A stretch of 64,000 nt of DNA from Hysterangium stoloniferum (lineage: Eukaryota > Basidiomycota > Agaricomycetes > Hysterangiales > Hysterangiaceae). The DNA is taken from positions 744,001 through 808,000 of the forward strand of contig WHVD01000021.1 in assembly GCA_015178975.1 (NCBI GenBank), in the 5' to 3' direction. The position numbers and the translations under genes are program-made. The notes under the pieces were generated by a model. That model was not told the origin of the DNA and did not search any database. It saw only the letters and a program-made list of their open reading frames with translations. Positions 22,921-64,000 of the stretch are shown piece by piece (the first letter of the stretch is position 1; each line of letters starts with the position of its first letter).

Positions 22921-24199
22921 TGTGAAGATCCATTCCCAGAAACTCTTTGGAGTATTTCCTGGATATTATCTCTGGGTCCAAACCATCTTCCAGACCAGTA
23001 TCAAGATCCAGAATCCACTGGAACCTGATCCTCATCCCTTCAAGGTGACTTCCAGTCAGACTCCCAGTCAGACTCCTGGTCAGATGCCCAGTCAGACTCC
23101 CGGTCAGACTCCCAGTCAGACTCCCAGTCAGACTCCCAGTCAGACTCCCAGTCAGACTCCCAGTCAGACTCCCAGTCAGACTCCCAGTCAGACTCCCAGT
23201 CAGACTCCCAGTCAGACTCCCAGTCAGACTCCCAGTCAGACTCCCAGTCAGACTCCCAGTCAGACTCCCAGTCAGACTCCCAGTCAGACTCCCAGTCAGA
23301 CTCCCAGTCAGACTCCCAGTCAGACTCCCAGTCAGACTCCCAGTCAGACTCCCAGTCAGACTCCCAGTCAGACTCCCAGTCAGACTCCCAGTCAGACTCC
23401 CAGTCAGACTCCCAGTCAGACTCCCAGTCAGACTCCCAGTCAGACTCCCAGTCAGACTCCCAGTCAGACTCCCAGTCAGACTCCCAGTCAGACTCCCAGT
23501 CAGACTCCCAGTCAGACTCCCAGTCAGACTCCCAGTCAGACTCCCAGTCAGACTCCCAGTCAGACTCCCATCTCCGATCCAACTTTCCACCCCAAGTCTC
23601 TGATCCAACTTTCTGACATCCACCTCAAAATCCAACCTGACTTCCAACTATGGAACATTTATAGTTTCCATATTTCCGAACCTCATCCTTGTTCCGTATT
23701 TAGTAACTGACAGATTAACAGTTATTCATTCACTTGTTTATTGTTCTTGTTGTATTCCTATTTCGGAATCTTCATCCTAATCTGTCTTATTATACTTCTA
23801 GATTTGTAGTACAATTACTGGAACATCTATATAGTCTTCCATAGCCATGTACTTACTCTTTAGTTTTAATCTCGAATTAGTTTGTATCTCTTCTGTCTTT
23901 CTGTACACTCAATCTTCGGAACTCTCTGGACTCCGGATATCCAGAACTCCCAGAACTTCTGAGTATCTGTAACATTCCGACATATATTCATCCTCTGAAA
24001 TATGGACACCCAAGTGAGTGCACGAGGGTGCAGCACATAAGCTGAAGCCAAGTCCATCTGTACTCTGGTAATATTCCGATACTCCCATTACTAATCCCCA
24101 GAAACTCCTGGACTAATTCTCTGAAACTCTGAGGACATATTTCTGGGAAGTATCCGGAATATCCATTGGAAATTCTGCCCCGAGATCCAGAACTTAACA
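22921..24199 (+). mobile_element. Solo LTR, family 'C', with expanded minisatellite (TSD CTGAC)
   Basis: The LTR starts 'tgtgaagatccattcccag' (compare tgttacgacccgttcccgg at 17,869), ends '…ccagaacttaaca' and is flanked by CTGAC at 22,916-22,920 and 24,200-24,204. It is 1,279 bp against 583 bp for the other copy. Most of the excess is the 12-bp tandem array at 23,052-23,567. Confidence 0.85.
23052..23567. repeat. 12-bp minisatellite (cagtcagactcc)n
   Basis: There are about 43 copies of cagtcagactcc, almost perfect apart from the first few units. It lies inside the family C solo LTR. Because 12 is a multiple of 3 and the unit lacks stops in several frames, it creates long artificial open frames on both strands (SQTP, SLTG and DWES repeats). 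I do not treat these as genes. Confidence 0.95.
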
Positions 24200-39963: not shown

Positions 39964-42900
39964 TGCAGAATGGAGGGTGGCCGATAAGCTACTTAAATTC
40001 AAAGTGGTCGATGATTATCCATAAGCGTCTAACACCGGATATTAAGCTACGATGCTAGCATATATGCGATGCCAGATACAGATCTGGGCAAAATGTGTGT
40101 AAAACACCGACTTTATTGCGGGGGCCGTACACTGGCACCTTTGAGTAGACCTGCTCGGAGCTCAAGTTGGATTGAACTCGTTGAGTGATCGCTGTGACAA
40201 GAGCAGGTCGCACCACGCACCATGCCATGCAGAAGGGAGAATCATGGTATGCTGAAGTCTCAGGCTGTCGTCGTATATCTCGGATATGGAAATGATAGAG
40301 ACGCGCAAACCCTAAACTCACGATAAATAAATAGATTCGTCACCTTCGTCACCAAAGTCAATTGTCGATCGCGCACAGATCGCACGAAATATTGAAACAT
40401 ATATGATCTCCCCCCACCAAAATCATTCCAAAATATGACTCTGGCCCAGCTCACATCCCTGGAATCGATAGAGTATACGGTTCGTAGGACAGGCCGGAAT
40501 CACGCTATTTTGACATGTGGTTTGTTACTCCCACGAGCTTGGGGATTCACACACAAGCGATAGCAGATCCCCCTTACCCAAAATGGTAAAGTTGCTCATC
40601 AACTGGCCACGGTTACCTGTTACCAATCAATGGGCGTGAGATTGCAGTCTAAATCATCTAAGACAAGCAGAGCGGATATACTGTTTATAGAGAATTGGAT
40701 ATACCACCATTGGCGTGTAAATATTATCGTCAAAGGATATCAAGTATTAGTTTGTCATTATTTACCCATGCGAGTCTCGGAGCATTCAATATCCATGTGG
40801 CGTATATTTGATTATCATGCCAGTGGCGTACTATATGTTGATTTTTTGTGTCCAAATGTCACGGGTAAGTATGTGGCTGACGATACCCCAGAAATCGACC
40901 AATGTGATGTCAATCATCGTGCTCAGACGCAATTCGCATATACCATTTCTTGGAGACGTGCATAGGCCTGAAGCTTTTGAGTTGAACATGTAAACGGCGT
41001 CGGGATGTGATGGATTCCATGACTCACGTTAGAGCCTTGGTTACATAAGGATTCCCTTCGATTCACACGTGTCTGTAAAGAGTCCATACGACTCCATTCT
41101 CGTGCCGGCGCACGGTTGTTGCCTAACCGACACAATAAATTAATGGGAAACAATTACGCTTAATCGTCATTGCGGGATCATTATTGGAGTGTGTATGGCA
41201 ATCCAAATTACCTGTCACTCCATTAGGATTATAGTAGACCCGCCACTGGTGGTGTGGCTAATCTAGAAGGTTATTGTTGCGATTGTTGATGTTTGTGTTG
41301 CAAGCCGAGGACATACAAGGCTTGCTGTTCTCTTCGCGGTTATGCCGTGTTTGCACATGGTATAATTATTTCCATTTATTCTCCTGTTTAATGTACTACA
41401 ACAGCTGTAATAGTACAATTATTATTTTAAAGTTCGCTACATAACTGGTTCATCAAGTAGGTTTCGTTCCGGTTTATTTCGTTCCGGTTTAAAAACGGTT
41501 CATAGGGTATGTATCGTCTGTGAGATGTAGGTAATGTAGCTTTATGTAATCCTGGTGCCCCCAGTCTTACGCACGGACCCTTTAGTTTTACGTGATTACA
41601 TAATCACCGCGTTTTACGGTATAAGTAGCCGGGAAGTTTTCAGGACCTTAGATCTTACCGTACGCTGCACTTGCCTGTATCTTGTTCTGCTCTGGACAAT
41701 ACACCGTGGTCCTGTCAACTTGTGTGACCGCCAGTGATCCCAATTGACGACGGGATTACACTTTACTACATATCTTATTCTTGGACAGGAAATACGATTC
41801 CTGTAGGTCAAAAGCAACATCGACTCCATCCCCATCAATGTGACACACTATCTCTTTTTAATACCCTACGTCCTATTACGATATCCCCCCCTCTGAGTTT
41901 GCGCTCTAATACTGTCAAACCCCCAAGAGAGAGTCCTGTCACTAATCACCACATTACTTCGTCTTGTTAAATATGCAACTCGACTTCAAGCAACAGGTCT
42001 AGAGCTGGCCTGTCTAGATACCTCATCGTGTTAAGAAATTTAGTTTTATGAAATTGCCTACAATATACCGCCTCACTTACTTGCTAGATTGATATTTCAT
42101 ACTTCAGGATAATATCATTTTTGCTTAAAACGAAATTTCTTAATGACCAACTATTAAAGAAGGCATCTACCCAAAAGACAAATGTCACTTAGTAGTTACT
42201 TCCTATAGCACTCACATTACCGGGTTCGGACACCAAGAAGTTATATAGTTGCCAAGAGCCCCAGATGACCCTGAGCAAATCAAGTCTAGCATGATCGTTC
42301 CTCGTCTATATCTGGAATTATAATATTCAGGTTGTTTATCACAAAGTGATCCATCTGGAATTGCAACCGAGAAGATGTGAATGAGAAACCGTGAAACGAT
42401 CGATAAAGCACTCAAGGCCATCCTTAAGCTTACGTATTTCTGATAAACACATGGTCGGTCTGTTCCCGTTGTGAAAATGCGCTCAGTTTCTTTCACGTGT
42501 AAGTAAAGGTAACCGGTAGATCTTTTATTATAAGCCTCGTGAAGACCTTAAAACCAAGAGGGGTATAACCAATTCTGGCGATGGTTCTCTGTAGCCGATT
42601 AGGCGCCCGTGTCATTCGCTGCTGAAATGGGATTTTGTACTGATTTTGAGGTATATAGCCATAAAATTGTTCACATGTGAAAATATTCATAATTAATCTA
42701 ACAACTTGAGATAAATGAGATTGTTGAGTTTTTCGTTCTCGCCTCATCCGCTTGATCCGCTTAAAGACTTATTAAAGAATTTGAGCCCCCAAGCATCGAA
42801 GGGCCTATGAAGGCACAGCCCGTAAAAGCCGAGAGGGGATGAGAGCGATTGACGCTAAAAAGAATGAAAGCTTTATAAGTAGAATTTTCTTAGTTCAATG

Positions 42901-44000
42901 GTGGAACTTTATTCTCCTCAAATATGAATTCTGGGTCGAATCCAGAAGAAGGTATTGTGCGTTTGCCCGTTTGTTCGGCGCCCGTATGACGCAGCCAACA
43001 TGTTGCAATGGCGATCTAAAATACAACTTGCCTCTGAACCTGCAATTTGGAGAGCACACCCTTTATTCGATTGGTAGGCACTGTTATAATATAGTGAGGT
43101 GGGGTAATCCATGAACAATTAATATTGAACCGACATACCTTTGTATAGTTTTCCGTTAGTCGCAGTATGTGAACCAGTTATCCGGCTTGATTTTTGAGAA
43201 GTGCTGGCAGATGAGGAGATGCAACAGGGATGTATAAGTCTACCCTGTATCCAATCTGTTAGTAATTTTGAAGCCAGTAATATTAAACAACAACATAAAA
43301 CCGACCCCTGACGTTAGGTTGGGACCCATGAGTGCAGAAGCTGTTCAATTTATCCATTTCGGCCTTGCTGAAGATGATGCGAAAGCCGCGTATGCGATCA
43401 ATGTCTTCAGGGGTGCAAACAGCTCAATATTCCTATGATACTGTTAGAATTACTGAAACAGTTGATAAATTTACAAACACACCTATCCCAATGAATGTAA
43501 CATGTACGGATAAACCATTGCACAATAACTTCGGAAAGTGCGGTAAAAATTCCACTTTGAGTGGGACGATTCAATTCCAACCGTATATTATTTTATTAAG
43601 TAGTGCTGTTAAGAAATTATCAGTCCTATAAGAGGTAATCAGCCAAAAGGGGAAAACGTACGTCAACGTTCAGCCGGATACCTGGCTGATTAATGACACT
43701 GTCATAAGTCTCAGATGTGGTGAGCCTCAACCGGACCGCAGGTTATTTGCGACCAGTAGAATAAATTTTGATAAAAAAAACCTTGGACATATCATCTAGG
43801 AAAATTAGGGGACTAATTGAAGAAAGATCAAATTTCTTCCTCAGCAGTTTAGGTGATTGAGGTGAAGTCAGTCCAGCAAAAACCGCCCCGGATTGGTAAG
43901 GAAAGGTGACGCATACATTTACATAATCAGGTTAAGGAGAACGACTGGGGGGACAGGATGCCAGTAATCCCTCTTCTCTTACATTCCGACTTTTTGCCCC
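39964..44000. other. 4 kb without a supported protein gene
   Basis: AT-rich sequence with scattered short frames. The only structured item I found is a tRNA-like cloverleaf at 42,884-42,954. Confidence 0.45.
42884..42954 (+). tRNA. tRNA-like cloverleaf, anticodon CCT (Arg); possibly a relic
   Basis: The sequence folds as: 7-bp acceptor (attttct/agaaggt, two G-U pairs); 4-bp D stem (gttc/gaac) with A-box-like tagttcaatgg; anticodon stem with 4 of 5 pairs and loop ctcctca; variable gaat; 5-bp T stem (tctgg/ccaga) with loop gtcgaat (B-box-like gggtcgaatcc). The loop is close to the CTCCTAA of tRNA-Arg(CCT). Position 54 is G instead of T, and the AT-richness is unusual for a nuclear tRNA, so it may be a pseudogene or organelle-derived. 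Confidence 0.45.
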
Positions 44001-50657: not shown

Positions 50658-53116
50658 CTATCCTAAAGCATTAACCAGGGAGGCGAAGTTGGGAGTACCG
50701 AGGCCAGTAACCTATCACGATCATAATTAGCATGAGGAAACCACCTGAATCGGCGACAACAATACACACAGCATCCCAACCATTCATCGCCTAGTAAAAT
50801 AATGTTTTAAGCCCATTTTCTACGGTAAGGAAGAGATAAACGACCCTACCATGAATCCAGTTGAATTACAACCAATATTATTCCCTATTCAATGTGTCGG
50901 CATCACAATTATAAAAATATATCCCAACCCAAACGCAAAAAGGTGGTTCACCTCCAGTAATATCATTAAAGGCCCCTGGGTTCTGATAGATAGCCGGGTT
51001 AAGGAACCCCAGAAGAGGCTTTCCGTTCGCCTTCCGATGTGCGTTCAGAAATGCGACAACGGCGGCAACTACGGGAGATGAGAACGAGGTTCCCATTCCG
51101 CTCACTGTGCGGCCATTCTGAAAGAAAAAGATCATATTGTTCGATATTGCTGAAACATCTGGATATGCTCGTCCTGTCTATGACAGGTGGAAAATATAGT
51201 GGTTAGTCAATATAGAATATAGAGGCTGGGCTTAATGGAGGACAGCAATGACACACCCACTAACTTTGTTAAAAAGTCCGGCATTGCTATCACCCATGTT
51301 TGACAGGAATTGGTTTACGGAGATCGTCTGATAACTTGGCTGGGGAAATAGATTCGAGAATCCACCACTGGAAAATGATACGCCTGTTTCGCTGGAATTC
51401 TCGGTAAGGGTTGTACCACCGACCTATTATTAAGAATTACCAGAAATAAGAGCATATTATGATATAACTTACCGAGGTAACGTAGGGACAAGTCGACGGG
51501 AATGTTGGATGGAACACAGTGCAGCCATCTTCCTTTCCGAATCCGGCCGCACCACCGTCCCCCGATGCTACAAGTGTGGTCATGCCCCGAGCAGCTAGTG
51601 CCATAAATGCGTTGCATGTGTTTCTGGAGTTTTAGTATTTGTATCAAGATATGTTTACCCCTGACACGAAATATCGCATACGTACATGGCGATAGGTTGA
51701 GAACCCATAAAGCTTAACTCGTCCATTCCTACCGTGCTACCTGTCAAATTGCATGGTCTGGGAGAGTTACTTGGCAAATCTGCATACCATAGCTTATAGA
51801 CATCACTTCCGGTAACGTATTGTTCTGTAGTAATGTCTGCGCAATAACCAGGAATGCATCCATCGTCTCATCATTCGAGTGAATAAAGCTGACGGGACTT
51901 CCGGTTGTGCCGAGTGTGAAACTAACATCTGCAAGCTGAGAATTAAAATTAAATCACTACGTCTACATAGTCAGAAATTCAAACAAGTCGTAGCTTACTG
52001 ACAGCTTCGAAACTAGACGTATTAGGGTCTTCAGGGGATGTTTCACCGGCTAGACCCACGAAGGTATATGTAGTGTTTGGGTTGATGTCTGGACGGAATT
52101 TTTGGATGAAATACTTGATTACCATTGTCAATACCATATGTAAGATGTGGATTTCGATAGCAAAAAAGTCGCACCTTCGTGTCAATCTTATCAGGATTAT
52201 TATCAGCAAGGCCGATCACAGAAAGGTGGTTAGGATCCATCGTCGCGATGTTAGTGGGGAGGCCGTATAGGTCCTTGACTAAATAAGACATTTTGTGAGT
52301 AGGCGCAGTTATTGTTTAGAGTCCGTCATACTGCAGGTGACCGTAACATATGAGGAGCTGCAGGAAGGTGGTAAACCGCGAGTCAGCTGCTTAAAGCTGT
52401 TTTTCCCTACTGGAGCTGATGAAATTCGTGGTGAGAGGGATATTGGCGTGTCAGGATCAAATCTAAATTTAGTAAAAATCAGTATAAAGTTTATCTACAC
52501 ACAAAGCTTAAGGAATGAAGTTACGCCGTAGTTGGATGAATATACTGAACGTGGCGTCGTAGAGCGTGAGGCAGAGAATATGAAAGTGTTCGAGATACAT
52601 ATTTACCGCTCCTTCGATGCTTGAATGTCGCAAACTTAGCGTCCAGCATGGTATTGGCTATCGATACGTTGACAGTAAATTGAATAAGATCTCCAGCATA
52701 TGTGATCTTTTGTGGGACTATTCCGTAAGTTTTCAGCCATTTGTCTACTGCACTAAACGCTTTCTGGCTGGGTTGGAGATAGGCTTCGACCTGAGAGCAT
52801 ACACGACGGACGAGGTATTATATAACTAGGCATTTGAAAAGGAGGTGACCTACCTCTTCCTTTGAAAGGTATTTTCCATATCTCGAACTGTGCGGCTCAG
52901 ACACATCCTCGACGACTCTCCTCAGACCAGCGATATCATTCGAGACAATAGCCATTTCGAGCTTTAAGACTGTGTTCGTCGCCAATGCCTCGCCTGTATA
53001 AGTGTAGTGAGGAGGAATTTCCGCACGCTCATGTACATGTAAGGGCAGAAGTGTAGGAACATCTCTCGTTAAGGTGACGGGGCAGATCGAAAGAACAGTC
53101 AAAGCAGAATACCACA
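50658..53116 (-). CDS. Sedolisin-type serine peptidase (S53, tripeptidyl peptidase-like)
   Basis: The gene starts at ATG 53,116 (MWYSALTVLSICPVTLT, a plausible but weak signal peptide). The prodomain is recognisable: TVLKLEMAIVSNDIAGLRRV, SSRYGKYLSKEEV, then VEAYLQPSQKAFSAVDKWL and TLSYSLPHALRRHVQYIHPT. The catalytic part has VKDLYGLPTNIAT, then FEA|LADVSF across an intron, giving the Glu-x3-Asp pair. VASGDGGAAG supplies the oxyanion Asp and GMGTSFSSPVVAA the nucleophile Ser. The end, GWDAV|TGLGTPNFASLVNA, is split by an intron and stops at 50,658. About ten short introns. Members are secreted or vacuolar acidic proteases that remove tripeptides. The chain looks intact. Confidence 0.9.
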
Positions 53117-54578
53117 TCGGAATGCCAATGAACAGCAATGACCGGAAAATCGTCTATTATGTACAGGCTGCTGCATAGTACTGCCAGATATGTACAAGGA
53201 TATAACGTGATTTGATACCGACTTGCGGGTAAAGTTGATATCCTATCCTTGCATGAATGATGCCTTCCTGGCAAACATATTTTCGCCCCTGGCAGTTACT
53301 TAGACTACAGTAGTTGGACATCCGATCGCGATCTTCGGTTTTAAGGGCCTTTATTTCTCATTTAGGGAATAAGGTACCTGACGATAAAACGGTTTCCAAG
53401 TGAATTTTAAAAAGATGACGTCACACTGTGACCTTACCTCAACTAAGTAGACCTTTAATTGCTTGTAGGTTGAAGGCTCGTTTCTCCTTCACCCCTAGTA
53501 GCTGCACAATGGTCTACTCCAGATATTCTTCCAACTAAAATGCATTATAACTGCAGTAGCCTGTTCCATAATCGTAATAGTACACATGCTCCAATATACT
53601 CATGTAAACGCACTACCTCTCTCTGATACGAAGGCACTAAAGCCGCCAGAGGTCTCCTAGGGCCGGTGTGCCCGAACAGCTTATAATAATGCCGCCCAAG
53701 TTGCCCGCTGGGCCCGGATATCCGAGCTTTTAGAGAGTCCTAGCTTCAATGACTCATCCATCTCCTGATGTTCGACATCGCAAGTGGTCTAAAACTTCCA
53801 AGTGGCACACAATGCTTGTAGGAGAGAAAAGTCGTAGTGAAAGGCTTGCAGAGGAGATGATGTCACGTTAGGAATCCATCGGGTAAAGTCCGGATGAAAA
53901 GCTGGTAGATCCTTAGAAGAGAGGTTTCTTGCCTATAAGGGTCCATTAGGAATCTTTGTCAATTCGAAACTTTTCCTGGTGAACACCTTGCATGTACGAC
54001 TTTGAGGCATCGTCTAGTGATACTCCAAAGACTGAAAAGCCCGGGGCCACTATGGGGTGGGATCGCGGCTGTCCTGTTGGGACGAGGTCAGAGTATGTGA
54101 CGTCTCTTTGGTGGGCATTATATTGTGGTTCACATGGCATTGAAGATCTTCCCGCAACGGTCACTTTTTAGCGAGCGCTCCAGAGCTAGTATCGCAAGAA
54201 CCCCATTCCGCTTTCCTCCACTCCCATCTAACTTCCCAATCCACATCTACATATGTAACAGTACCTCCCAATGCACGGTTATTCCAGGACACCCTTCCTA
54301 CAGTTGGGTCCGCCTTATTTACTCCACTGCTTGACCAAACGTCCGAGAGCGAGTCCGCTCGCTTTCGGGCGGATTGGAAACGCTGGATAGCACCACTGAC
54401 ACAACTTCAAACGCTTGTGAAGAAAAGCTCAAACACAGACTGGAGTTGGAGGCATCCTCCCTGCCTACTGGATAGCCGGTTGCTTTCCGCTGTCGAAGAA
54501 GCGAAACTCAAAAATTAGTACGCACGATTACCATTGAGTCACCCGCATACTTATTTACCTTGTCAGTTTTCTTATCAG
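53117..54578. other. Divergent intergenic region
   Basis: Between a minus- and a plus-strand gene. A frame at 54,330-54,520 could be an upstream exon of the next gene (one reading has ERVRSLSGGLETLDST), but no start codon or zinc cluster could be placed with confidence. Confidence 0.4.
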
Positions 54579-57675: not shown

Positions 57676-58626
57676 TGTTAAGAGCAGAAACTGACGGATG
57701 TCGGCAGACTGACGGGGACCGAACGGAAGGACTTGGCTTCAGCTTATGTGCTGCGCCCTCGCAAGTTACCGTCGGGTGTCCTTAAATTTTGGGCGGGCGG
57801 AAACTAGTCCTGTCAAGTAAACCTCTCGGTAAACTACTGATCGGAAACCAAAGGATAAGTTGAGGGTTGGGCTGAGGGGTCAGAGACCAAGAGTCAGAGA
57901 CTGAGAGAGTCAGAGACCGAGAGTCAGAGACTGAGAGAGTCGGAGACTGAGAGAGTCAGAGACTGAGAGAGTCGGAGACTGAGAGAGTCGGAGACTGAGA
58001 GAGTCGGAGACTGAGAGTCAGAGATTAGAGGTTGAAGTCATAAATGTAGGTTGAATCGTAAATCAGATGGGGTTGGAATGTGGTGGTCGTGAATAGATAA
58101 TGGAGTCGGAAATTAGAAGGGTATCTAAGTTGATCTAAGTCGATATTCTAAGTCGATGTTCTAAGTCGATATTCTGATTGTTTAGTAGTTACATTACAGC
58201 GGGTCTTATATCTGAGTTATCGGCATCTAGAAACTACTAACTAAGGGAAGAGCGGAAACACTATTTGACAAATAGACTTGACTAGAAACCGGAAGGTTAC
58301 GATAAGATCGGAAGCCGAGATTAGCCGAGAGCAGGATTACGAGAAAAGGGAATAGTCCACGGGCTACAAGTATATATGGGCATATGTGAAACATAGAGTA
58401 AAATGGATCATCATAATGAAAAGGGACATATCAAAGCATAACCAGATGGTACGAGTATATTTGACAGGGGCGTAAATGGGGTTTGATCGCCGTGAAGGTA
58501 TACGTCAGTGTCAGTGTTCTGAAGGTTTCCGAAATGATAACTTGATCAATAACTTGGAACATCGATAGACTGTAGTATTCTCGGGGACCGTCGGGTTGCG
58601 ACACAGGTTATGACATGGTTGTAACA
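57676..58626 (-). mobile_element. Solo LTR, family 'A' (TSD GGGGT)
   Basis: Reversed family A LTR ('tgttaagagcagaaactgacgg…gacatggttgtaaca') flanked by GGGGT at 57,671-57,675 and 58,627-58,631. At 951 bp it is about 200 bp longer than the 742-bp copy. Much of the difference is a tandem array at 57,885-58,025. It keeps many CpG sites, so it looks young. Confidence 0.88.
57885..58025. repeat. Short tandem repeat (gagactgagagagtc-type) inside an LTR
   Basis: About nine imperfect copies of a 15-18-bp unit 'gactgagagagtcrga' lie where other family A LTRs have only one 'gggtcagagacc' stretch. It is an LTR-internal minisatellite expansion. Confidence 0.8.
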
Positions 58627-58889
58627 GGGGTCTGGAATGTAAGGGGTGATTGAGATGGGAAGTCCACAGACTTGAGAATGACAGGAAAGGTCAAGTGGGA
58701 TGACCTGTGGGTTCCAAGAATATGCTGGTACAAAGTCAAGAGCTATGTAACTGGTAGAGGACTAGAGGTATGCTTAGTTGATTTTCTGATCAGATTGTAC
58801 AGTAAGTACATGCATAGGCTAGACTATATAGAATTAAAGATTATTGCATTACAAATCTGGTTGGACAAAAGACAAAATGGGTGAACAAG

Positions 58890-59520
58890 AAACACAATCC
58901 CTACAGTCTACTCATCTACTCAAGAAATTCCTTGTACTGGAGTATCTGTGGAATTCAATTTCCATAGATTTCATTAAACATATTCCCCCTTTGCATTCCT
59001 TCACCTCTATTCTAGTCATTGTTGGCAGACTTTCTAAGCAGAGCATTTTTATACTGACACATGATACAATTACATCTCAAGAACTCACAAAACTATTTGT
59101 CATCCATGTTTTCTCCAAACATGGTGTTTAATCTCATGTTACCTCAGATTGGGGCTCTGAATCCATCTCACACTTCTTCAAAACCCTCAAAACAGCCCTT
59201 GATATGAAAGTACACTTCACTTTGGGATACCATCCTGCAGGCAGCAGACAGATTGAATAAGTTAATCAAACATTGGAAAAATATCTGTGAATCTATTGCA
59301 ATTATCAACAGGATAATTTGTCAGACCTCCTACCCTTAGCACAGTTTGCATACAATAATGCCCTGAATGCCACTACTGGTGTTTCACCCTTCTTTGCAAA
59401 TAAAGGCTACAATCCCAATATTACAGTCCATCTGGAATGTGATCTGGTCTCTGTTAAATCTATTGGATTACAAACAATGTAGCATATGATAAATGGGTAA
59501 CCAACTATGATATTACTAGT
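58890..59520 (+). mobile_element. Ty3/gypsy integrase relic (fossil)
   Basis: The plus strand shows NSISIDFIKHIPP, SILVIVGRLSKQSIF, HDTITSQELTKLFV and, further on, QFAYNNALNATTGVSPFFAN. This is the integrase core and the region after it. Several breaks interrupt the frame. It belongs to the same broad group as relic G1. An LTR-like tail with the shared 'gagggtgcaacacat' block follows at about 59,530-59,605. Confidence 0.75.
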
Positions 59521-60105: not shown

Positions 60106-63100
60106 TTAGTCATGGAGACTGTTCACACATGTTGTGCATAAAGAACCACAAGGATGGCACTCTGAAGGAGTTATAGAATTGCAATATGCAGAGAAAGATG
60201 TATTCAAACCATGATCATTTGTTACAAACCATGCATTGTCTACATGGGCAGCAAAGTACTCCCCTTGGTCTTCCATAACATATTGCACAAATGAGTTAAT
60301 ACTGGCTAGAAGTGGTGAGAGCTACAACAACTGCAAGTGGTCCAGTAAGTATCATCACAAGTACATAGATAAGCAAAGGGGAAGAAACATACCAAGGTCA
60401 TTCTTCTTCATTATATCAAAGACCACATCACTGTCTTTATCTCCACAAGAAATTGTTTCCTGAAATGCTTGCTGCACATCATGTATCAAAGTCCTAGCTG
60501 AGAAAGCCATATAAGACCTAGCAGCCTGATGAAAGTCCAAACCTGGAGCATCAAACAAATGACAACTAATGACCATGGCAACTAAGAATTATGTGTTAAA
60601 CAATGACAAGTTGAACAAGCAAATGCAAAGTACCAATGCTAGGCCAAACAACCTTGCATTGGGGTGAGTGGGAACAAAACTAAGAGGTTAAATAAACCAA
60701 TGGTAACCATTAGCTAGATATTTACAAGATTGTCACACACCTCATATGTCAGATGTGCTGAGATGAAGACAAAACATTGTTTGGAGTAGTAATCCTGATG
60801 GAATAAAAGAAGAAGGATAATACAAATATCAAAGAAAAGAAAAGAACAGAAAAAAAATATAGAAAATAGAAACAATTCCAAAATACAGGGAGATCACATC
60901 TGGGAAGAGAAGTCATGAGGGGAAGATGGGGAGAAAAAAGTGAGAAACCCACATTCTGGGAAGACCATGACAAGGGAGATGAGTCATGAGGGGCAGACAA
61001 GGAGGAAAAAATCAAAAGCTCACTTGCTGGGAAGAGCAAAGGAGATGAGCCATAAGAGGCAGACAAGGAGGAAAGAGTCAGAAACTCACATCCTGGGAGA
61101 GCATGTCAAGGGAGATGAGTAATGAGGGGCAGACAAGAAAGAAGTCAGAAACTCACTTCCTGGAAAGAGCATGCCAAGGAAGATGAGGCATGAAGAAGAA
61201 AAGTCAGAAACTCACAAGCTGGGAGGAGCATGCCAAGGGAAATGAGCCATGAGGGACAGACAAGGAGGAAAAAGTCAGAAACTCACTTGCTGGGAAGAGC
61301 ATACCAAGTGAGATGAGGACAAGGAGGAAAAAGTCAGCAACTCACTTGCTGAAAAGAGCAAGCCAAGGGAGATGAGCCATGGGGGGCAGATAAGGAGGGA
61401 AAAGTCAGAAACTCACAAGCTGGGAAGAGAAGCCACAATGGACAGACAAGGAGGAACACATCAGAAACTCACAAGCTAGGAAGAGCACACCAAGGGAGAT
61501 GAGCCATGAGGGGCAGACAAAGAGGAAAAAGTCAGAGACTCACAAGCTGGGGAGAGAAGGGAGATGAGCCATGAGGGTTAGACAAGGAGGAAAAGTCAGA
61601 AACTCACTTCCTGGCAAAAGCATGTCCAAGGAGATGAGCCATGACAGCCAGACAAGGAGGAAAAGTCAGAAACTCAACAAGCTGGGAAGAGAGAGCACAC
61701 CAAGGGAGATGAACCGTTGTAGAGAGTTCAATTGGAAAGTAACCTATATGGCAATAGTTTCAAGTCACGTCACAAGCACAAATTTTTATATATACTTTGG
61801 CACTCAAGACAACTTCTACACAGCCAAATCAGTTTCATCAAACAGATGACCAAAACTCCATCATGTTCAACACTGCATCGTCCTCCAAAGTAACCCTCAG
61901 TTCCTACTCAAAACTGACTCTTCACTCCCAAATAGAACTCCAGCCAATAACATCTCATTTCTCCTCATCCTCAGACATCATTCCCAAGCCCCTACCAGCC
62001 CACTCATGCTCTTCCAAGAAATACCATCATCTCCTCCATTGACAAGGTATTTGACTCCCATATGCTCCAGATGATCCTGCCTTCATTTGTATACAACACT
62101 ATGATGGCTCCTCTGAAATCCTCCACTAACGATTTGATCGAGTGTTCAAGCAGGACTGTTCCCCACTGTCATTGGGAATCTGTTACATGGCAACGTTCAC
62201 TCCTGCTGGAACACTCAATCAAATTGTTAGTGGAGGATTTCAGAGGAGCCATCATAGTGTTGTATACAAATGAAGGCAGGATCGTCTGGAGCATATGGGA
62301 GTCGAATACCTTGTCAATGGAGGAAATGATGGTATTTCTTGGAAGAGCATGAGTGGGCTGGTAGGGGCTTGGGAATGATGTCTGAGGATGAGGAGAAATG
62401 AGATGTTATTGGCTGGAGTTCTATTTGGGAGTGAAGAGTCAGTTTTGAGTAGGAACTGAGGGTTACTTTGGAGGACGATGCAGTGTTGAACATGATGGAG
62501 TTTTGGTCGTCTGTTTGATGAAACTGATTTGGCTGTGTAGAAGTCGTCTTGAGTGCCAAAGTATATATAAGAATTTGTGCTTGTGACGTGACTTGAAACT
62601 ATTGCCATATAAGTTACTTTCCAATTGAACTCTCTACACCATGAGGGACAGACAAGGAGAAAAGGTCAGAAACTCACTTGCTGGGAAGAGTATGCCAAGG
62701 GATATGAGCTTTGAGGGACAGACAAGGAGGAAAAAGTCAGCAACTTACTCACAAGGAAGAGCAAGCCAAAGCAGATGAGCCATGAGGGGCAGACAAGGAA
62801 GAAAAAGTCGGAAACTCACAAGCTAGGAAGAGCACACCAAGGGAGAGGAGCCATGAGGGGCAGACAAGGAGGAAAAAGTTAGAAACTCACTTCCTGGGAA
62901 GAGCACACAAAGGGAGATGACCAGGTGCAGGCATGGAGGAGAAAGTCAGAAACTTACTTGCTGGGAAGAGCATGTGCAGGGAGATGAGTCATGAGGAGTA
63001 GACAAAGAGGAAAAGGTCCAAAACTTACATACTGGGATGAGCATGCCAAGGGAGATGAGCCACCAGGGGTAAACAAGGAGGAAAACTTACAACCTATAAT

Positions 63101-64000
63101 GACCATCCCAACAATTGTCCAAGCAGTCAGTTGAGTCTGTGATAATAATTCTGATTACATGCAAGCAAGGAATCCTCACCACCTGCAATCCCAGATGCAA
63201 ACCCCATTGAGTACCCTCCTTCAATTTCTTACAAAAAGAACAACACATACACTCTGATTCACAATCAATCAATCCACCTCTCAATTCATGCAGATACATG
63301 ACAATGAATAGATCACTAACCTCCTAAATTGTTCCCATATTTAGCCATGGGCTGCGAACCTTGGCAATGCATTTAACCAGACAACACATACAGTCTGTTA
63401 GTAACATGAAACCAAAGTATCATGAGCTGGGTTCCAAACCTTGGATGTGCAGTGCTTACAGCCTATCTCAAACACAGCTTTTAATAAGTGTACTGTAGTT
63501 GTTTGGGGGACACTCACATCAACCTGTGTAAGAATTATAAATATGGCATTAGTATTTCTTAGAAACCAAACTCACAGACTATTCCAACTCAAAGCCTATT
63601 GAGTCCAAGCAGCCAGACAATTGCTGTGAGCGGATGAAGTATGTAATTAGAACTCGGAGAATTTACATTCTTTTCGGAGTGTGGAAATCATATAAGGTTA
63701 ACTCCAATATAATGATATAAGCATACTCACTTTCTGTGCAGTTTAAAACCAGTAGGATTATACTCTAATTAGTCTGCATCAATGATTTGTGCATTAGATG
63801 TGAGTACTTACCTCCTGAATCATCCACGGATAGTTGAGCCATTCATGGAACATGCAGTACAAAAAGACTCACCATCTGCCACATTGTTGTTCACAGGAAC
63901 AGCTATGAGCCAGTATATGCCAAACTGAGCAGAGACACTCACATCCTATACAGATGAACCTCATACAGCACTGAAACAACAGCAAGGGCTTACCACCTGT
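60106..64000 (-). CDS. Unrecognised gene with a chain of 3-nt micro-exons; 5' part outside window
   Basis: Minus strand, running in from beyond 64,000. From 63,996 to about 60,890, minimal introns (GTRWGT…CTNAY…YAG) are separated by triplets, e.g. + positions 63,994-63,996, 63,943-63,945, 63,873-63,875, 63,812-63,814, 63,731-63,733, 63,576-63,578, one 6-nt spacer at 63,518-63,523, 63,460-63,462, 63,392-63,394, 63,321-63,323, 63,251-63,253, 63,180-63,182 and 63,091-63,093. On the coding strand these read GTG, GAT, ATG, GAG, AAA, TCT, GTTGAT, GCT, ACT, GAG, AGT, GTG, GTT; no stop. Ordinary exons follow: DYYSKQCFVFISAHLTYE (about 60,798-60,745), a short exon, VAMVISCHLFDAPG…DVVFDIMKKND (about 60,585-60,392), then ASINSFVQYVMEDQGEYFAA to a stop at 60,106. 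No family recognised. Phase through the chain is not proven, and at least two junctions are irregular. Confidence 0.55.
60891..63093 (-). repeat. Tandem array of ~60-75-bp intron-like units (two blocks)
   Basis: About 13 units at 60,891-61,717 and 7 at 62,639-63,093 are split by the fold-back element. The unit on the plus strand reads 'gatgagccatgaggggcag', 'acaaggaggaaaaagtcag', 'aaactcac', NNN, 'ctgggaagagcatgcc'. Its reverse complement starts GTGAGTTTCTGAC and ends CTCTTCCCAG, so each unit is a complete minimal intron followed by 3 nt. The 3-nt spacer varies (CAA, CTT, GAA, GAT, AAT, TAT on the minus strand) although the flanking bases are nearly constant. Confidence 0.85.
61718..62638. 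mobile_element. Fold-back element, two 438-bp inverted arms, 45-bp loop
   Basis: Arms at 61,718-62,155 and 62,201-62,638 are inverted copies of each other with about 10 differences (~98% identity). The outer ends are TGTAGAGAGTTCAATTGG and its complement. Flanks are CCGT (61,714-61,717) and CCAT (62,639-62,642), a possible 4-bp target duplication. The ancestral repeat unit has CCAT at this point. No transposase is encoded; the 81-residue frame present in each arm has no known motif. It interrupts one intron-like unit of the array. Transcribed, it would form a ~438-bp RNA duplex. Confidence 0.85.

Follow-up and report, generated by a model that had tools for sequence, protein, structure and literature searches.

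A putative chain of about thirty one-codon exons at the edge of a Hysterangium stoloniferum contig segment

Can a protein-coding gene carry its reading frame through a long run of exons that each hold a single codon? The question was raised by a 64,000-nucleotide (nt) stretch of contig WHVD01000021.1 of Hysterangium stoloniferum (assembly GCA_015178975.1, positions 744,001 to 808,000; hereafter the window, whose own numbering is used), where an acceptor, three nt and a donor (YAG-NNN-GTRWGT, minus strand) recur up to the window edge. The original prediction was of about thirty minimal introns separated by 3-nt exons, and parsing bore this number out: 31 consecutive micro-exons could be placed on the minus strand from 63,996 to 60,953, thirty of 3 nt and one of 6 nt. 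Fourteen lie in an older, diverged part (12 with clean junctions, one flanked by AAG and GTAAAT, one of 6 nt); a younger array holds the other 17. The 12 exact 3-nt spacings and the single 6-nt spacing counted earlier among the 14 diverged junctions were recovered, and the chain extends to the very edge of the window (CAG-GTG-GTAAGC at 63,999). Chain introns measure 48–88 nt save three, namely the intron around a lost unit, one that bears an inserted element, and the last.

For the diverged part (63,085–64,000, minus strand), motif expectations were taken from 2000 dinucleotide shuffles. The strict motif YAG-N3-GTRWGT was seen 8 times where 0.08 were expected (shuffle maximum 2), which establishes the junction series as real, and the loose motif YAG-N3-GTDNG was seen 12 times against 0.47 expected (shuffle maximum 4). 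When gaps of 0–15 nt were tried, the strict motif matched eight times at 3 nt, once at 6 nt and at no other gap; the loose motif gave 12 matches at 3 nt versus 1 at 4, 1 at 6 and 3 at 7, with others scattered at 19–30 nt. Starting from the donors gave the same picture: the nearest upstream YAG lay at 3 nt for nine of ten GTDWGT donors and at 6 nt for the tenth, and at 3 nt for 11 of 15 looser GTRNG donors (4, 6, 7 and 21 nt for the others). An alignment of the 13 diverged 3-nt junctions, which omits the 6-nt one, showed AG and GT in 13/13, YAG in 12/13 and GTDNG in 12/13, with the AG/GT score preselected at 63,672, a junction that entered because of its AG-N3-GT. This pattern matches the GTRNGT-like donor and YAG acceptor of U2-type spliceosomal introns. 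Column information peaked at AG, GT and most donor positions, with 0.3–0.6 bit at either terminal base of the exon, at the nucleotide preceding YAG and at some positions beyond the donor.

A matrix trained on the 17 young junctions alone ranked all but one of the 12 clean diverged junctions among the top 75 of 127,976 positions, the remaining 64 being 16 training sites and 48 positions elsewhere in the window. The longest chain of loose units had 11 members on the minus strand and 6 within the diverged part, whereas outside the locus neither strand went beyond 1, and in 150 simulated Markov sequences of 64 kb a chain never exceeded 3. Motif excess, exact spacing and matrix ranking together rule out a chance origin of the junctions.

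The young array is a tandem repeat of period 71 that runs from about 63,085 downwards, is interrupted by a foldback element, and has as its unit one intron plus one codon. Because it is a recent 71-base-pair (bp) tandem array, its repetition proves little by itself, and what its units have kept was examined by alignment. For the 15 of 17 introns aligned between 63,090 and 60,956 (the lost-unit and element-bearing introns being omitted), mean pairwise difference was lowest at the splice sites (donor 0.081, acceptor 0.083), higher in the body (0.197) and highest in the triplet (0.537). Mostly-gap columns were removed, and the 80 columns kept had no gap within AG, triplet or GTRAG, an inserted donor base at 61,678 falling in a removed column. 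The peak of variability in the triplets leaves room for selection for variety; such selection is unsupported, the highest three adjacent body columns reaching 0.52 and triplet identity bearing no relation to body similarity.

The diverged units are a different matter. The earlier impression that their bodies share no visible similarity holds on average, mean global identity for the 13 being 0.521 versus 0.511 when shuffled, but not throughout: the best contiguous run of six reached 0.57 versus 0.52, five of 78 pairs had z scores above 3, two old–young pairs gave z scores of 6.6 and 4.7, and scores of about 3 linked the intron at 63,872 to several young ones. This old–young similarity hints at common descent; a faint likeness between two introns (CCAAGGTT...) gave no lead. 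None of 48 flanking columns was conserved at 80% in the diverged part (11 junctions, omitting 63,999 at the edge, 63,672 and 63,523), compared with 23 of 48 in the young array. AG, spacing and donor thus outlast most else as units age, and the survival of splice signals in introns nearly beyond recognition suggests genuine splicing of the chain, now or in the past. Diverged intron lengths also fit those of nine candidate introns in two other genes of the window (47–82 nt, boundaries set by eye), which have YAG in 9/9 and GTRNG in 8/9. The branch-like CTNAY sequences noted earlier were suitably placed in 7 of 13 diverged introns (3.7 expected, P 0.05), but the broader YTNAY, at 8 of 13 versus 8.25, was without enrichment.

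Joined, the triplets read VDMEKNSVDATESVVYQELQLELLLQQLEDQN, 32 codons without a stop. The claim that no triplet is a stop therefore stood for phase 0; it is tempered by a chance of about 0.2 (about one in five) for 32 stop-free codons, and by a second open phase, the third being closed. Phase 0 is the only phase open through both the triplets and three candidate downstream exons on the minus strand. The first (60,741–60,794, 54 nt, DYYSKQCFVFISAHLTYE) has a CATCAG acceptor and a GTGTGT donor, is in phase 0 at both ends, and starts at 60,794 rather than at 60,798 as first proposed. The second (60,393–60,525, 133 nt, AARSYMAFSARTLIHDVQQAFQETISCGDKDSDVVFDIMKKNDL) has a CATCAG acceptor and a GTATGT donor, and the candidate last exon (60,296–60,330) has a TTGCAG acceptor and the stop TAA. 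Together they give a 73-residue end followed by TAA with frame 0 alone open, their boundaries having been picked to keep a frame open, and a Pfam search of these exons with E values up to 1 gave no match, the 133-nt exon included. Retention of any one of the 31 chain introns would bring in a stop or a frameshift, where chance would leave about 3 retainable; the test took the last intron 4 nt short, and its true 158 nt shifts the frame too. This result is consistent with the proposed coding role rather than strong support for it.

From the sequence, we consider it likely that this is a protein gene whose coding sequence passes through about 31 consecutive phase-0 micro-exons, thirty with a single codon and one with two, built by tandem duplication of an intron plus a codon and with splice sites then kept by selection. 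Selection on the splice sites would be expected, since leaving in any single chain intron would introduce a stop or shift the frame. The host is most likely a fungal gene with its 5' part beyond the window.

In the diverged part (63,085–64,000, minus strand), 14 micro-exons enclose 13 introns of 48–88 nt. In the order of transcription the candidate exons are 63,996–63,994 (GTG), 63,945–63,943 (GAT), 63,875–63,873 (ATG), 63,814–63,812 (GAG), 63,733–63,731 (AAA), 63,669–63,667 (AAT), 63,578–63,576 (TCT), 63,523–63,518 (GTTGAT, the 6-nt exon), 63,462–63,460 (GCT), 63,394–63,392 (ACT), 63,323–63,321 (GAG), 63,253–63,251 (AGT), 63,182–63,180 (GTG) and 63,093–63,091 (GTT). The AAT exon falls in the interval 63,579–63,730, previously left as unclear; a candidate junction, AAG-AAT-GTAAAT at 63,672, could now be placed there, but its AAG acceptor is weak and it may be spurious, any NAG-N3-GT being expected about 0.6 times in that interval. 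There are 41 NAG-N3-GT sites in all: 30 were parsed as junctions, 8 share 4 nt with one of these, 2 belong to the inserted element and the last is the lost unit.

The upstream block of the young array (62,678–63,084, minus strand; 6.4 copies of the 71-bp repeat) holds micro-exons at 63,031–63,029 (TAT), 62,960–62,958 (CAA), 62,893–62,891 (GAA), 62,822–62,820 (CTT) and 62,680–62,678 (CAA). Near 62,750 a unit has been lost, its YAG-N3-GT gone and GAG-TAA-GTTGCT left. The downstream block (60,953–61,690, minus strand; period about 71, introns of 53–68 nt) holds twelve: 61,681–61,679 (CTT, with donor GTTGAG carrying one inserted base at 61,678), 61,610–61,608 (GAA), 61,546–61,544 (CTT), 61,475–61,473 (CTT), 61,419–61,417 (CTT), 61,348–61,346 (CAA), 61,289–61,287 (CAA), 61,218–61,216 (CTT), 61,159–61,157 (GAA), 61,092–61,090 (GAT), 61,026–61,024 (CAA) and 60,955–60,953 (AAT). 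Fourteen of the 17 young triplets (60,953–63,031) are CTT (6), CAA (5) or GAA (3), for Leu, Gln and Glu; these differ at all three positions, with the neighbouring AG and GT fixed. Between the blocks, the 996-nt array intron 62,677–61,682 contains a 921-bp inverted-repeat (foldback) element (61,718–62,638), whose arms (61,718–62,158 and 62,198–62,638) are 441 nt each, 98% complementary, and separated by a 39-nt spacer. The last chain intron as modelled (60,795–60,952, minus strand, 158 nt) encloses a decayed final unit with AG at 60,901–60,900 and 2 nt only before GT, off frame.

The same sites could be read as ratchet points at which one very long intron is removed recursively, step by step, so that the mature messenger RNA (mRNA) would carry few or no triplets. 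Stepwise removal would likewise select paired acceptor and donor sites, and fungal introns longer than 3 kb would be hard to remove in one step. Known ratchet points have YAG followed directly by GTRAGT with zero nt between; the chain contains no zero-gap strict site, versus 22 at a gap of 3. For a 1-nt exon of Arabidopsis, the relevant passage of PMC4674806 favours intron definition with the two introns removed in succession. A fixed 3 nt (once 6 nt) is, however, not needed for recursive splicing, and the in-frame spacing with its matching downstream phase points to coding, so we regard this explanation as unlikely. A related alternative from the original prediction, one large intron with decoy sites, leaves the kept acceptor–donor spacing unexplained.

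A pseudogene or relic, in which the chain was once spliced and the gene is now silent or being lost, would account for the inverted-repeat element in one intron, the unit without YAG-N3-GT and the off-frame final unit, and retroelement-like stretches lie nearby (by eye). The older units speak differently: YAG and GT, 3 or 6 nt apart, still flank 13 of the 14 diverged micro-exons, and AG and GT flank the 14th. Decay, if there is any, would for this reason be recent, and a relic seems improbable.

A non-coding minisatellite with splice-like words would suit the 3' half, which is a 71-bp array, and prokaryotic tandem and CRISPR-like repeats show the same chain of words without splicing. To gauge such chains, a collection that represents 84,980 species by a single genome apiece was searched for three consecutive YAG-form units, which returned 72 stretches with no eukaryote in their titles; a CAG-form chain was found in 4 stretches of viral contigs (longest chains 3–4 units). 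These 72 genome and 4 viral stretches yielded 65 chains of at least three units. All 27 prokaryotic chains of at least five units kept 6–48 of the 48 flanking columns at 80%, against none in the diverged part, though the comparison is uneven, with 11 window junctions set against chains of 5–31 units and short chains passing 80% more easily by chance. The lowest control (6/48) came from low-complexity, GT-rich sequence; by eye, those with 31 and 28 units, the longest of all, look like CRISPR arrays. A plain minisatellite therefore fits the 3' half only and leaves the survival of mainly splice positions unexplained, which makes it very improbable as an account of the whole; a CRISPR-like array is likewise rejected for a diverged part without a conserved repeat block. 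Among viral contigs, 17 stretches were examined as possible relatives and none was confirmed.

A protein tandem repeat is excluded by unit spacings that are seldom multiples of 3 (2/17 in the run 63,999–62,825, and 1/11) and by stops in all six frames of 63,085–64,000 (12–22 per frame). In animals, tandem exon–intron units can host small nucleolar RNAs (snoRNAs), but a host gene for intronic small RNAs with meaningless exons may be dismissed here, as the two Rfam matches in 60,200–64,000 are both below their family thresholds, one lies inside the element, no transfer RNA (tRNA) was found in a search of that region, and exon length stays a multiple of 3. One of these matches was to SCARNA7 (63,150–63,271; 14.5 bits versus a threshold of 65). 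The centre of the foldback resembled the MIR7127 model (48.7 bits versus a threshold of 100, E value 1.3e-07), probably a mere effect of the long hairpin. With nothing above threshold in the chain region, a cluster of tRNAs or small RNAs was also rejected.

The proposal of one-codon exons is left with junctions beyond chance, kept spacing and an open phase 0 in its favour. Weighing against it are the recent origin of the 3' half, where the motif would be inherited with the repeat whether or not anything is spliced; the lost unit, the off-frame final unit and the base inserted in the donor at 61,678; the 921-bp element inside a chain intron, with which the gene may be in decay; and the weak junction at 63,672. 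The old part, with its leftover similarity to young bodies, is not fully free of the argument from repeat descent. Three control chains of 3–4 units have bodies at shuffled level, and the flank control is uneven as described. GTGAG predominates among young donors and occurs in 1 of the 9 candidate introns of other genes. G is the usual last base of an exon, and triplets ending in G number 0/17 in the young array and 5/13 in the diverged part. Branch-site evidence is marginal, and the second open phase, the way in which downstream boundaries were picked and the lack of a Pfam match count on the same side.

If the chain does encode one-codon exons, a unit of one short intron and one codon would have multiplied by tandem duplication, with 3' units recent and 5' units too old to show much beyond their splice sites. 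We infer that the diverged units also arose in this way, that the locus is transcribed, and that the triplets are included in the mRNA. Each added copy would be nearly neutral, costing one amino acid and one intron, and once present would have to be spliced; selection would hold AG, spacing and donor while the remaining sequence drifts. Splicing would presumably proceed by intron definition, introns being removed one after another, because a 3-nt exon would hardly leave room for complexes at its two ends simultaneously. Skipping any number of units would preserve the frame, so that imperfect splicing might be tolerated. As a guess, the foldback element could fold and bring the ends of its intron together, and its insertion may have been tolerated for that reason. 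More tentatively, and as a plausible rather than a probable proposal, codons would be split off singly into some thirty or more successive single-codon exons that are spliced separately, the run having grown by duplication of intron and codon and being held by a ratchet; since any unit could be skipped without loss of frame, a family of peptides differing by single residues could also result.

Pfam covered 10 of the 25 open stretches of at least 150 amino acids plus 9 further pieces; the 10 stretches gave matches to a Zn(2)-Cys(6) domain and ribosomal protein S19e, and a sedolisin (pro-kumamolisin) gene was also recognized by Pfam. The latter (50,881–53,153, minus strand) has at least seven candidate short introns in an incomplete model whose joined sequence is not open throughout. 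Best solved S19 chains for the window protein were 9axt, 6rxx and 7r81, which we take to be from fungal ribosomes. These genes by themselves point to a fungus, and a basidiomycete class would suit the short introns and a GC content of mostly about 45%. The sole tRNA detected in the window is a tRNA-Arg (anticodon CCT, 42,884–42,954). A 12-bp tandem repeat (GACTCCCAGTCA, 43.7 copies, 97%) at 23,047–23,570 has several open frames on both strands, a 16-bp repeat of GTCAGAGACTGAGAGA type (8.9 copies) lies at 57,879–58,017, and an open stretch that looks integrase-like by eye, as of a retroelement, lies on the plus strand at 58,838–59,128, with no Pfam match at E values up to 1.

If the triplets reach the mRNA, the chain would be an extreme test of a spliceosome working with exons below its own footprint, some thirty in a row, and a one-gene record of introns multiplying with one codon, recent copies standing beside very old ones. 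Exons of 3 nt are normally missed by annotation programs and RNA-sequencing aligners, and similar chains may for this reason be overlooked elsewhere. Passages in PMC12940212 and PMC8831610 likewise describe very small exons as prone to being missed. A consecutive chain of 3-nt exons was not found in a full-text literature search, most subscription papers being outside its reach.

Single exons of this size are nevertheless on record. According to the passages concerned, Arabidopsis APC11 has a 1-nt exon (PMC4674806), Fusarium CYP621A one of 1 nt and Drosophila homothorax one of 3 nt (PMC12940212, PMC7392893), so that the splicing of 1–3-nt exons is possible in plants, fungi and insects alike, but for isolated exons between ordinary ones. 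Mammalian RPS24, as excerpted from PMC12686416 and PMC11162997, has three neighbouring micro-exons, and the term '3-bp exon' occurs in these papers; that run is of three and alternatively spliced, whereas here there are about thirty, 30/31 of one size. Introns are described as multiplying in fungi, and tandem duplication as able to create them, in sections of PMC4974935 and PMC8469720; the copies of such stwintrons and proliferating introns are there dispersed, nested or single, whereas here intron and codon repeat head to tail. Recursive ratchet points share the adjacency of acceptor and donor and stepwise removal, with exons of zero length there and 3 nt here. Micro-exon genes resemble the chain in architecture. 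Those of Schistosoma, as outlined in part of PMC10526429, are likewise made of many short exons (3–81 bp), but with introns of up to 5 kbp, mixed exon sizes and in another kingdom, compared with mostly 48–88 nt and 30/31 exons of exactly 3 nt here. The aphid bicycle genes and the megacycle gene (118 exons, 2092 residues), in the account given in the relevant text of PMC9168663, are chains of many small exons with nearly all internal ones of one phase; that phase is 2 and the exons are larger, whereas the present chain would run in phase 0 with one codon each. At the sequence level it presents 31 consecutive small candidate exons of one phase, of 3 or 6 nt, and we provisionally rate it as the extreme end of the micro-exon genes, single exons of 1–3 nt and micro-exon genes themselves being already known.

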